Part shown: in pieces, positions 9,798 through 15,063 of the stretch | Layout: the number at the start of each line of letters is the position of its first letter | How positions within the stretch are numbered: position 1 is the first letter of the stretch | DNA from: Candidatus Gallionella acididurans | GTDB lineage: Bacteria; Pseudomonadota; Gammaproteobacteria; Burkholderiales; Gallionellaceae | Reading direction: 5' to 3' | NCBI GenBank assembly: GCA_001577345.1 | Contig: LSLI01000010.1 | Location: 1 to 64,000 of the forward strand | Length of the DNA: 64,000 nucleotides | Notes under the pieces: model-generated | The model's input: the letters and a program-made list of their open reading frames with translations, nothing else | The model's database searches: none | Told to the model about the DNA's origin: nothing | Position numbers and translations under genes: made by a program

Positions 9798-11836
<2,039 letters not shown>

Positions 11837-11860
11837 TTCGAAGCACCTAGAAATTCAGAA

Positions 11861-11960
11861 TTTCGGGATGAAGCGCAAGGAGCCGCGCAGTGAATGACGA
11901 GACATACCGCAAAGGTAGGCGAGAAATGAGCGAGCACGCGACGCCGCGATTCGCCCGAAA
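11861..11960. ncRNA. Structured intergenic element, copy 1 (prmB-hpnC)
   Basis: A ~100-bp element with a conserved core (CAAGGAGCCGCGCAG from 11876, and GCGAGCACGCGACGC before 11946). It is closed by an outer helix: TTTCGGG 11861-11867 pairs with CCCGAAA 11954-11960, and GAA and CGC (11870-11876) pair with TTC and GCG (11946-11952). An inner hairpin TACC...GGTA has a variable loop. Copy 2 lies at 12830-12926 with the same core but a different outer-stem sequence. It could be RNA or a mobile palindromic repeat; the strand is undetermined. Confidence 0.6.
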
Positions 11961-11973
11961 AATGGATTTATAA

Positions 11974-12783
11974 ATGTCGGTCGATCATTACGAGAATTTC
12001 CCGGTAGCCTCTATCCTGATGCCCAGACGGCTGCGCAAGCCAGTCGCGGCGATCTATCATTTCGCCCGTGCGGCGGACGACATCGCCGATGAAGGCGACC
12101 TGCCCGACGAACAACGCCTGAGGCAACTCGATGAATTCCGTGCGGAACTGACACTCATCACAAACAATGAAACTCCGCTCACCCCGCTGTTCCAGAATCT
12201 CGCCGCAGAAGTCCACCGGCATGCGCTGCCGATGCAGCCGCTTTACGATCTGCTCGATGCATTCTCCCAGGACGTCGTTAAAAAGCGCTACAGCGATTTC
12301 CCCGACCTCCTCGACTATTGCCGCCGTTCGGCCAATCCGGTCGGCAACCTGCTATTACACCTGTATGAAGAAGCCACGCCGGTCAATATCGCCTACTCGG
12401 ACGCGATCTGCACCAGCTTGCAGATCATCAATTTCTGGCAGGATGTCGCAAAGGATTATGCAATCGGGCGTATCTACCTGCCGCTGGATGAACTCGCGCA
12501 ACACGGCGTGAGCGAGGAGCAGATCGCACAGGGCATCACCAACGACGCATGGCGAAACCTGATGAAGTTCCAGGTGGATAGAGCGCGTGCGATGATGATC
12601 TCGGGAAAGCCGTTGGGCAGCATACTCACCGGACGCATCGGGCTGGAGATGCGCATGATTATCGCGGGCGGATTGCGCATACTCGCCAAACTGGAACGCG
12701 CGCAATACGACATGTTTCGCCACCGCCCGGTGTTGAAGCCGCATGACTGGGTTATCATGCTGGCCAAGAGTGCCCCGCTTTAA
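11974..12783 (+). CDS. hpnC: Hydroxysqualene synthase HpnC
   Basis: A 269-residue trans-isoprenyl diphosphate synthase-type enzyme of hopanoid precursor synthesis. By the known HpnCDE route it converts presqualene diphosphate to hydroxysqualene. The aspartate-rich DDIADE is at 35-40 and the second motif is in FWQDVAKDYAIGRIYLP. The N-terminal region ASILMPRRLRKPVAAIYHF is typical of HpnC. It is followed by hpnD and hpnE. Unlike the tight hpnD-hpnE pair, it is set off on both sides by copies of a ~100-bp structured repeat. HpnC and HpnD are paralogues; order and sequence support this call. Confidence 0.9.
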   Translation: MSVDHYENFPVASILMPRRLRKPVAAIYHFARAADDIADEGDLPDEQRLRQLDEFRAELTLITNNETPLTPLFQNLAAEVHRHALPMQPLYDLLDAFSQDVVKKRYSDFPDLLDYCRRSANPVGNLLLHLYEEATPVNIAYSDAICTSLQIINFWQDVAKDYAIGRIYLPLDELAQHGVSEEQIAQGITNDAWRNLMKFQVDRARAMMISGKPLGSILTGRIGLEMRMIIAGGLRILAKLERAQYDMFRHRPVLKPHDWVIMLAKSAPL

Positions 12784-12829
12784 TTCTCAAACCTCAATAT
12801 ATGCCTTGCATCTCTAGAAATCGTAGCGA

Positions 12830-12926
12830 GCAAGCCCAAATGCAAGGAGCCGCGCAGTGAAAGACGAGACATACCATGAAAGGTAGGCGAGGATTGAACG
12901 AGCACGCGACGCAGCAATTGGGCTGC
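12830..12926. ncRNA. Structured intergenic element, copy 2 (hpnC-hpnD)
   Basis: A ~97-bp relative of copy 1 with roughly 60 of 72 core positions identical. The outer helix here is GCAAGCCCAAATGC (12830-12843) against GCAATTGGGCTGC (12914-12926). The bases differ from copy 1 but pairing is kept, with one bulge and one mismatch. The TACC...GGTA hairpin is conserved, with loop ATGAAA instead of GCAAA. The element ends 17 bp before the hpnD start, so it would form the 5' leader of hpnD. Confidence 0.6.
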
Positions 12927-12943
12927 GCAGTAGATTTATTGAG

Positions 12944-13786
12944 ATGCAAAAAATGACACCCGACCAATATTGCGAAGACAAGGCCCGACAAAGCGGCTCC
13001 AGCTTTTACTACAGTTTCCGCTTCCTGCCCAAAGACAAGCGCCGTGCGATCACCGCGCTTTATGCCTTCTGCCGCGAAGTCGACGACGTCGTGGACGAAT
13101 GCTCGGATGAGCAAGTGGCACGCACCACGCTCAACTGGTGGCGCTCACAGGTGGCGGAAATTTACGGTGGAAAACCCCAGCACCCGGTCGCGCAAGCGCT
13201 GGTTCCGGTGGTGAAACAATTCAACCTGTCCCAGGAACACCTGCTCGAGATCATCGACGGCATGGAGATGGATCTGGACCAGCCGCGCTATGCCGATTTC
13301 AAATCGCTGCAACTGTATTGTTACCGGGTCGCCTCGGTGGTCGGCCTGCTCTCCGCGGAGATATTCGGCTACACCGACCGCAAAACACTCAAGTACGCGC
13401 ACGACCTCGGTATCGCCTTCCAGCTCACCAACATCATCCGTGACGTCGGCGAAGACGCGCGGCGCAACCGTATCTACCTGCCGGTCGACGAGATGCAGCA
13501 ATTCGGCGTCACGGCGGCAGAGATTCTGAATGCAAAGGAAAGCGAAAATTTCCAGAAGCTGATGGCGTTCCAGATCGAGCGCGCGCAACGCTACTATAAA
13601 CAGGCGACAGATCAACTCCCCGCAGTGGACCGAAAATCGCAGCTCACCGGCCTGATCATGGCCGCGATCTACCAGGCAACACTGAAAGAAGTCGTCGCCA
13701 GCGGCTGCCATGTGCTGAAGGAAAAGGTTACGCTCGGCACCGGCTACAAACTCTGGCTGGCAATCAAGACGTGGCTCAAGAACTGA
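12944..13786 (+). CDS. hpnD: Presqualene diphosphate synthase HpnD
   Basis: A 280-residue squalene/phytoene synthase-family enzyme that condenses two farnesyl diphosphates to presqualene diphosphate. The first Asp motif is DDVVDE (47-52) and the second is NIIRDVGEDARRNRIYLP. The N-terminal SSFYYSFRFLPKDKRRAI is characteristic of the family. Its 3' end overlaps hpnE by 16 bp, so the two are coupled. Starts at 12944 and 12953 are both possible; no strong RBS is seen. Confidence 0.93.
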   Translation: MQKMTPDQYCEDKARQSGSSFYYSFRFLPKDKRRAITALYAFCREVDDVVDECSDEQVARTTLNWWRSQVAEIYGGKPQHPVAQALVPVVKQFNLSQEHLLEIIDGMEMDLDQPRYADFKSLQLYCYRVASVVGLLSAEIFGYTDRKTLKYAHDLGIAFQLTNIIRDVGEDARRNRIYLPVDEMQQFGVTAAEILNAKESENFQKLMAFQIERAQRYYKQATDQLPAVDRKSQLTGLIMAAIYQATLKEVVASGCHVLKEKVTLGTGYKLWLAIKTWLKN

Positions 13787-15063
13787 ACGTCGCAGTGATA
13801 GGCGGCGGATACGCCGGCATGGCCGCCGCAGTCGCGCTGGCCGATTGCAATATCCCGGTCTCGGTATTCGAAAGCGCCCAACAACTCGGCGGGCGCGCTC
13901 GCGGCGTGAGTTACAACGGCACCCCGCTGGACAACGGCCAGCACCTGCTGCTCGGCTGCTATGTCCAGACCCTGCACCTGATTGAGAAGGTTGGCGGCAA
14001 TATCGAACAGGATTTCCTGCGCCTGCCGCTGCAACTCGATCTGCACGGCGAATTCTCGCTCAGGGCGCCGCATCTGCCCGCCCCGCTCCATTTGCTGGTC
14101 GCGCTGCTGACCGCACAAGGCCTGACAATAGTCGAACGACTGAATGCAGCACGCTTCATGCGCGCGCTGCGCCGCATGAAATTCAGTCTGCCCGGCGACA
14201 TCACCGTCACCGAACTGCTCGCGCAACACCAGCAGGACAAGGCGCTGGCAGAGAAACTCTGGGAACCGCTGTGCGTCGCCGCGCTTAATACGCCCATGCA
14301 CAAGGCATCCGCCCGGATTTTCGTGAACGTACTGCGCGATGCATTGAACCGGTCGCGTGACGATAGCGACATGTTGCTGCCGCGCATCAACTTCACCGCG
14401 CTGTTCCCCCAGCGCGCCGCAAACTATGTCGAACAGAGAGGCGGAAAGGTGAACATCGCATGCGGGGTGGAAGCGCTGAAACTGTCTGAAGACGGCATCG
14501 AGATAAGCACCGCGCACGGAACCGAAAAATTCAGCCACGTCGTCTGCGCCGCACCGCCTGCTGTTGCCGCCAAACTGCTGCGCCCGATCCCCGAACTTGA
14601 AGAAACAGTTGCCCGGATCGACAGTCTGGAACATCAGCCTATCTACACCGTGTACCTGCAATATCCCACCCACGTCACGCTGCCCTATCCGATGCTGGGC
14701 CTGCACCGGCGCCACAGCCAGTGGCTGTTCGACAAGGGACGCATAGCAGGCCAGCACGGCCTGCTAGCCGCCGTGATCAGCGCGGAGGGCTTACACCAGG
14801 AATTGCCCCAGGCGGAACTGGCACAAAAAGTGGTTGCAGAATTGCGCGAGGAATTCGGCATCGCAGAACAACCGGAATGGCACAAAGTCATCGCCGAAAA
14901 ACGCGCCACGTTCTGCTGTTCACCTAACCTGAATCGCCCATTGCAACTGACACCACTGCCCAGATTGCTGCTGGCGGGCGACTACACCGCTGGCGATTAT
15001 CCCGCCACGCTCGAAGGCGCGGTGATCAGCGGGTTGAAATGCGCGGACGTGATCAGCGCGTAG
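13771..15063 (+). CDS. hpnE: Hydroxysqualene dehydroxylase HpnE
   Basis: A 430-residue FAD-dependent amine-oxidase/desaturase-like protein that reduces hydroxysqualene to squalene, completing HpnCDE. The N-terminal dinucleotide fold is VAVIGGGYAGMAAAVAL with GGGYAG at 11-16. The C-terminal FAD contact is LLAGDYTAGDYPATLEGAV. It starts with GTG at 13771 inside the end of hpnD. No squalene-hopene cyclase lies nearby, so hopane formation must be encoded elsewhere. About 850 bp with no gene follow. Confidence 0.92.
   Translation: MAQELNVAVIGGGYAGMAAAVALADCNIPVSVFESAQQLGGRARGVSYNGTPLDNGQHLLLGCYVQTLHLIEKVGGNIEQDFLRLPLQLDLHGEFSLRAPHLPAPLHLLVALLTAQGLTIVERLNAARFMRALRRMKFSLPGDITVTELLAQHQQDKALAEKLWEPLCVAALNTPMHKASARIFVNVLRDALNRSRDDSDMLLPRINFTALFPQRAANYVEQRGGKVNIACGVEALKLSEDGIEISTAHGTEKFSHVVCAAPPAVAAKLLRPIPELEETVARIDSLEHQPIYTVYLQYPTHVTLPYPMLGLHRRHSQWLFDKGRIAGQHGLLAAVISAEGLHQELPQAELAQKVVAELREEFGIAEQPEWHKVIAEKRATFCCSPNLNRPLQLTPLPRLLLAGDYTAGDYPATLEGAVISGLKCADVISA

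Follow-up and report, generated by a model that had tools for sequence, protein, structure and literature searches.

Repeats on both sides of hpnC in Gallionella are most likely Correia-like MITEs, with family members that end at translation starts

The squalene genes hpnC and hpnD of Candidatus Gallionella acididurans are each preceded, in the 64,000-nucleotide stretch of DNA analysed here (the window), by a copy of one structured intergenic element, which raises the question of whether this element is a leader that tunes hopanoid synthesis or a member of a repeat family that happens to sit at these two genes. A reading of the sequence alone had described two elements, at 11861-11960 and 12830-12926, with arms that pair with each other; sequence reading and folding bore out both the elements and the pairing, but the spans given by a covariance model are longer (11835-11985 for copy 1, the 3' bases of which overlap the hpnC start codon at 11974, and 12802-12953 for copy 2). 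The common core, put at about 70 bp by that reading, shows 88% identity across about 78 positions (E = 1.2e-21 in a whole-genome search), and the inner TACC...GGTA stem is kept in both copies, as had been claimed. Copy 2 has an additional outer stem, in which TTGCATCTC (12806-12814) is paired with GAGATGCAA (12941-12949). Genes and repeats all lie on the + strand, in the order PrmB-like methyltransferase gene, copy 1, hpnC, copy 2, hpnD, hpnE, and are given below with scores from the covariance model (R1, built from 31 copies, with E-values that are rough) or from TIGRFAM-numbered profiles.

About 10937 to 11836, + strand: PrmB-like methyltransferase gene, 5' of copy 1 (TIGR03533, 426 bits, open-frame residues 311-594); the stop is at 11836, and the extent is approximate, the gene being nested in a longer open frame from 10037
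11847 to 11973, + strand: repeat copy 1, conserved part (R1, 154.8 bits, E = 2.5e-38 in the genome)
11861 to 11960, + strand: stem-closed part of copy 1, TTTCGGG (11861-11867) with CCCGAAA (11954-11960), from sequence and fold
11898 to 11923, + strand: apical part of copy 1, CGAG (11898-11901) opposite CGAG (11920-11923), with tandem G.A
11905 to 11917, + strand: inner hairpin of copy 1, TACC (11905-11908) with GGTA (11914-11917)
11974 to 12783, + strand: hpnC, squalene synthase HpnC (TIGR03464, 364 bits, cut-off 250.45)
12806 to 12949, + strand: repeat copy 2, from terminal repeat to terminal repeat, between hpnC and hpnD (R1, 129.7 bits, E = 1.9e-31)
12806 to 12814, + strand: left terminal inverted repeat of copy 2, from sequence and from outer pairing across copies
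12834 to 12839 and 12918 to 12923, + strand: stem of copy 2, GCCCAA with TTGGGC
12872 to 12875 and 12882 to 12885, + strand: inner hairpin of copy 2, TACC with GGTA
12941 to 12949, + strand: right terminal inverted repeat of copy 2, from sequence
12944 to 13786, + strand: hpnD, presqualene diphosphate synthase (TIGR03465, 387 bits, cut-off 278.6); the first ATG is at 12944, and a second in-frame ATG at 12953 is the start seen in relatives (MTPDQYC)
13771 to 15063, + strand: hpnE, hydroxysqualene dehydroxylase (TIGR03467, 461.9 bits)

The closest matches to HpnC come from metagenome-assembled genomes of Gallionella or Gallionellaceae (99% identical at locus L157 and 95% at L158).

Both copies in the window are real, but they are not the only ones: the window's genome contains 17 matches to R1 (10 to 12 by blastn). 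Matches to R1 were found in 67 of the 76 genomes of the genus Gallionella (E of 1e-4 or better; up to 30 per genome), in 78 of 300 genomes and 43 of 134 genera of the order (threshold 0.001) and in 23 of 185 genomes of the class, where all three counts include the window's own genome and the order count also includes a few congeners. Searching the genome and its relatives uncovered a family with matches across genus, order and class, in agreement with the repeat family that had been offered as an alternative to a leader. Blastn with copy 1 had matched 29 of 61 genomes, all of the window's genus, and 0 of 24 from other families; the impression of a family confined to the genus was abandoned, as the many distant matches to R1 indicate that the genus-only picture is a limit of blastn. 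A blastn search of plasmid records with the window element gave no match. The structured element had not been recognised as a named RNA family, in agreement with searches of Rfam, where the window region had no match up to E = 5 and 10 loci had none at the gathering thresholds.

Compensating changes in the stem, proposed from the two window copies, are found throughout the family. In an alignment of 79 Gallionella matches (A3; 76 distinct rows), 92.7% of cells were paired as compared to 82.7% after shuffling, changes on both sides occurred in 34 of 42 pairs (20.3 after shuffling), and 304 cells carried double changes (73.5 after shuffling). An alignment from several families (A2; 45 distinct rows) gave 89.2% paired cells (70.1% after shuffling), both-side changes in 38 of 42 pairs and 361 double-change cells (106.2 after shuffling). 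Both alignments were fitted to the model and are biased towards it; nonetheless, slid controls had no more than 42% of cells paired (at most 41.9% in A3). That covarying pairs exist across so many copies, where the sequence-only reading had named their absence as evidence against it, strongly supports a single long imperfect hairpin. The inner part of this hairpin is a ladder of short paired steps with GA-opposite-GA loops between them; GA stood opposite GA at the four internal loops in 54, 62, 56 and 59 of the 76 distinct Gallionella rows, and in the other families GC opposite AA prevailed at the first loop (23 of 45 rows vs. 17). The ladder is one-sided, as the opposite strand shows TC opposite TC at the same loops.

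Folding of the window copies against shuffled sequences gave z-scores of -2.36 (copy 1) and -2.77 (copy 2) on the + strand and of -1.15 (copy 1, weakly better than shuffles) and -3.89 (copy 2) on the reverse strand, so that folding energy alone does not pick out the + strand. With one biased pair excluded, G.U exceeded A.C on the element's + strand in both orientation classes (18 vs. 9 and 43 vs. 25; p = 0.12 and 0.04), a comparison that points weakly to the + strand of the element as the structured one in both orientations. The earlier proposal had been selection on structure, either of an RNA or of a palindromic mobile unit. Its second alternative held, while covariation alone proves no RNA function, as template switching between arms can also give paired changes.

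We investigated placement in 104 Gallionella copies, mostly the best-scoring ones and with orthologous sites included, which makes the counts non-independent; a simple codon score, and not annotation, was used to call the starts and the directions of genes. Flanking co-directional genes ran with the copy in 42 cases and against it in 35, 9 copies lay between divergent genes, and 18 were not fully classed. None of the 86 fully classified copies lay between convergent genes, a placement that the sequence-only reading had expected if its proposal were wrong. Among the 98 copies with a called start, the start codon fell between -15 and +13 nt relative to the nominal end of the element in 91 (60 of 67 distinct genes when each downstream gene was counted once) and at +4 to +13 in 73, with a peak at +7. 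A Shine-Dalgarno-like (SD-like) tetramer, scored 4 to 16 nt upstream of the start, was present in 70 of these 73 copies (63 by a narrower set), as compared to 13% (narrower set, 9%) of 13-mers drawn at random from these loci; of the hpnC starts that lack the element, 1 of 67 (narrower set, 0 of 67) had it. Typically, the Gallionella element ends in TAGAGG, and in most copies the start codon lies beyond this at the distance usual for a Shine-Dalgarno.

Conversely, an SD-like tetramer was found in 0 of the 18 copies with a start at -15 to +3, a group to which both window copies belong as called; the supply of an SD is thus a property of the family, and what is established for the window's copies is their start-adjacent position alone. 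Copies 1 and 2 have no clear Shine-Dalgarno at the hpnC and hpnD starts called by the script. If hpnD starts at the ATG at 12953, TGAG at 12940-12943, nine bases before it, could be a candidate Shine-Dalgarno. The tie to starts is weaker in other families, judged from a small sample of 33 copies: 17 had a called start, 6 of these 17 at -15 to +13 (including two closely related to the Gallionella type), and of the 22 copies that could be fully classified 4 lay between convergent genes. As the window had served to train the codon model, the calls in these families are less reliable.

The repeat measures about 144 bp between its terminal repeats and is far too short to encode a transposase. Within a copy, the two arms match each other far beyond the level of swapped arms as far as model position 5, past which the match falls to chance. 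Just outside the ends, in a fixed register, a 3-bp direct repeat was found in 23 of the 104 Gallionella copies (mean 3.8 and maximum 10 in 300 swaps of flanks); these duplications are T- and A-rich. A set of 34 copies, most of them from other families, had duplications of 4 to 5 bp (e.g., CTAA, CTAT, CTTA, CTAG, ATAG, CTGAG) in 15 cases (about 1.9 with swapped flanks), and 3 of the 15 resemble artefacts inside the repeat. The target duplications are a statistical property, being absent or unreadable in most single Gallionella copies. Filled and empty sites were also observed: the hpnC-hpnD junction is filled in the window and empty in L157, with flanks 97% identical, and the site upstream of hpnC is filled in the window, L157, L158, L159 and L177 and empty in L161, L163, L174 and L176. 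Within every cluster of orthologous downstream genes the orientation at shared sites was uniform, which suggests that many insertions are old and inherited. Overall, the repeat behaves as a MITE: it has terminal inverted repeats and more target duplications than expected by chance, its sites are filled in some genomes and empty in others, and it occurs in either orientation. The palindromic mobile unit considered at the outset is borne out.

Searches with terminal-repeat patterns in five genomes (G056, G287, G000, G063 and G027) found no autonomous relative with matching ends; those in G056 found versions of the element of 272 bp and about 206 bp. The 272-bp version, with identical terminal repeats, lies in G056 (L282-L284) at 174085, 429313, 950818, 1209859 and 2041850. 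Upstream of hpnC in L166, a short remnant noted by eye (TTTGAGTC..GGATTTACAGG..GACTCAAA) looks like an outer stem remaining after loss of the core. Across L157-L236, the hpnC-hpnD junction holds many unrelated repeats that vary by species, among them CACAGAGA-type inverted repeats in L163, L176 and L220 and a third type of hairpin in L206; the junction thus appears as a hot spot for small insertions.

Correia repeats have been known from Neisseria since 1988, and their mobilising transposase is given as unknown in two reports (PMC2649163, PMC10969869). Our query, a Correia element, matched at 100% in two Neisseria gonorrhoeae records of the plasmid set, and its core matched over 53 bases in Cupriavidus metallidurans (85%) and Eleftheria terrae (81%). 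These two records, NZ_CP119140.1 and NZ_CP119142.1, are labelled as plasmids but are about 2.17 Mb each and carry at least 40 Correia matches each; from their length and these matches, they look like misfiled chromosomes. With filters off, a gonococcal Correia element reached 42.1 bits (E = 1.3e-10) with R1 on one strand as compared to 13.4 bits on the opposite strand, a difference which argues for recognition of the core and not of hairpins in general; the copies in Cupriavidus and Eleftheria scored 28.3 and 26.4 bits. Whole-record searches of the Neisseria, Cupriavidus and Eleftheria records with R1 gave no match and no candidate past the first stage, and the Correia link therefore rests on direct scoring, core similarity and intermediate variants. 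Such variants, Gallionella repeats with the Correia-like core GACAGTAC..AGTACGGC, were matched 15 times across 13 of 76 genomes (the reversed pattern 3 times), and 8 of the 15 are also found by R1. In L164, L179 and L198, a variant of this kind lies at the hpnC-hpnD junction, directly 5' of the hpnD start. Compared by sequence only, with blastn of the Correia query against the studied loci, the Cupriavidus and Eleftheria copies alone matched; the query had no match in phages.

Smaller hairpins are nested within some copies. A REP-like hairpin of about 39 nt, with the core GCAATCCGC..GCGGATGC, lies in the right arm of several copies, upstream of hpnC in L157 (4222-4251), L158 and L159 and also in L021, L029 and L118; the window's copy 1 is without it and close relatives carry it. 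A second nested hairpin, of about 55-65 nt (ATAACCAGCGACTTG..CTAGTCGAATGGCTAG..), was observed in L007 and at the hpnC-hpnD junction of L158, and occurs at a similar position in 5 of the 15 Correia-core loci (L293, L296, L303, L304 and L305).

The hairpin could alternatively be part of the hpnC and hpnD mRNAs, as a cis-regulatory leader that responds to a signal and regulates squalene synthesis; both copies run in the direction of these genes and abut their starts, the hairpin structure is conserved between copies, and related junction hairpins are found in a few other species, at L158, L165, L179 and L198 (by the model) and in L164 and L206 (by eye). Among 80 named hpnC loci, however, a match to R1 lies upstream of hpnC in only 4 and at the hpnC-hpnD junction in only 4, 67 different genes lie downstream of the 98 Gallionella copies that have a called start, and orientation to the gene is mixed (42 vs. 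35). The leader specific to squalene or hopanoid genes that the sequence-only reading had entertained was rejected on this distribution together with the empty sites in close relatives, and we regard a signal-sensing leader as very unlikely. Selection on mRNA structure might instead maintain, without mobility, a host-adopted multi-locus or trans-acting RNA regulon, a reading consistent with placement at start codons, with an SD within the stem, with the absence of convergent placement in Gallionella (0/86) and with a consistent orientation at shared sites across species, which implies long-term retention. We consider it quite unlikely, as with mixed orientation only about one copy in two would carry the one-sided G.A ladder into mRNA, duplicated targets and empty sites are observed, and the excess of G.U over A.C lies on the element's + strand in both classes, where selection on mRNA predicts the opposite in reversed copies.

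DNA palindromes undergo template-switch correction between their arms, and the matched outer arms could be the product of such correction of a quasi-palindrome in replication, and not of structural selection. The match between the arms stops abruptly at its outer limit, and their sequences differ freely from copy to copy, as if one arm had been copied from the other, but internal GA/GA mismatches, which such correction would remove, persist in the core (54 to 62 of 76 rows), and G.U is slightly more frequent than A.C; we give this account of the arms a minor yet appreciable chance. REPs, which are 20 to 40 nt long and without target duplications, form a class of palindromic, multicopy and extragenic sequences, and the repeat shares these traits and carries the nested REP-like hairpins in several copies. 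Its length of about 144 bp, its terminal inverted repeats and its target duplications set it apart from the much shorter REP and BIME, which lack such duplications, and a REP or BIME moved by a RAYT (TnpA-REP) transposase is extremely unlikely.

Overall, we hold it to be probable that the repeats represent a Correia-like MITE lineage with different termini, of which the Gallionella copies end at translation starts; most likely, the repeat is such a MITE and is mobilised in trans. The transposase responsible would recognise the ends, and perhaps the hairpin too, and copies at gene starts would either persist or be targeted there; that no copies lie farther upstream favours targeting to starts or strong selection. 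Either palindromic end could act as a ribosome-binding site, so that an insertion would leave the gene unsilenced, and the Gallionella ends would in this way make insertion at translation starts tolerable. In mRNA, the hairpin would probably mask the ribosome-binding site until opened, for example by RNase III, which is reported to act on Correia elements (PMC2649163); we infer the masking and the opening from the fold and by analogy with these elements. Each copy may then set the level of translation of the gene downstream, and for hpnC and hpnD in the window such a putative effect would apply by position only. As the hairpin is kept in either orientation to the gene, the conserved one-sided structure probably serves the element's own propagation, a reading to which the excess of G.U over A.C adds weakly.

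A more far-reaching reading of this Correia-like lineage is possible but doubtful: Correia repeats may be one branch of class-wide hairpin MITEs, and the Gallionella branch, having evolved outward-facing ribosome-binding-site ends, may act as a portable, structure-gated translation module that would insert at translation starts, take over from the native initiation region whichever way it lies, and spread through operons. If true, ribosome-binding-site ends would explain in a simple way why insertions at the starts of genes can be borne, and the copies would amount to natural experiments, dozens in number, on how translation is controlled in iron-oxidising bacteria. A wider Correia family would also provide new genomes for a search for the mobiliser and for comparative study of the fold.

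Compared by description only, ERIC (IRU) is likewise an intergenic imperfect palindrome of similar size from enterobacteria (127 bp, with TA duplications and action in mRNA), and ends at Shine-Dalgarno sites are not described for it in the available text (PMC2229807). BRE, from Bordetella and Comamonadaceae and also compared by description only, is another small and mostly intergenic repeat of Betaproteobacteria; as described (PMC3110155), it differs from the Gallionella repeat of about 144 bp in being about 90 bp long, often tandem and with VNTR behaviour. With CREE (104-108 or 153-157 bp; PMC2649163), the repeat shares a comparable length, inverted-repeat ends, the core seen in the Gallionella variants, a mostly intergenic position upstream of genes and a mobilising transposase that is unknown for CREE as well. 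Core and fold agree with CREE (42.1 bits on one strand, and the intermediates), with the empty whole-record search as the counter-result. However, the terminal repeat is TATAGYGGATTAA in CREE and RCCTCTAGAAAT, among others, in the Gallionella type, the target duplications, TA in CREE, are 3 bp and T- and A-rich in Gallionella and 4-5 bp in other families, and the copies of Gallionella reach up to start codons with a terminus that is SD-like. By direct reading, the ends differ from the 26-bp TATAG-type inverted repeat of CREE, and the repeat was thus classified as Correia-like and not as CREE. In the open-licence literature, as far as its text was available, neither a Correia-like element from outside Neisseria nor a MITE with a ribosome-binding site at its end was found to be described.
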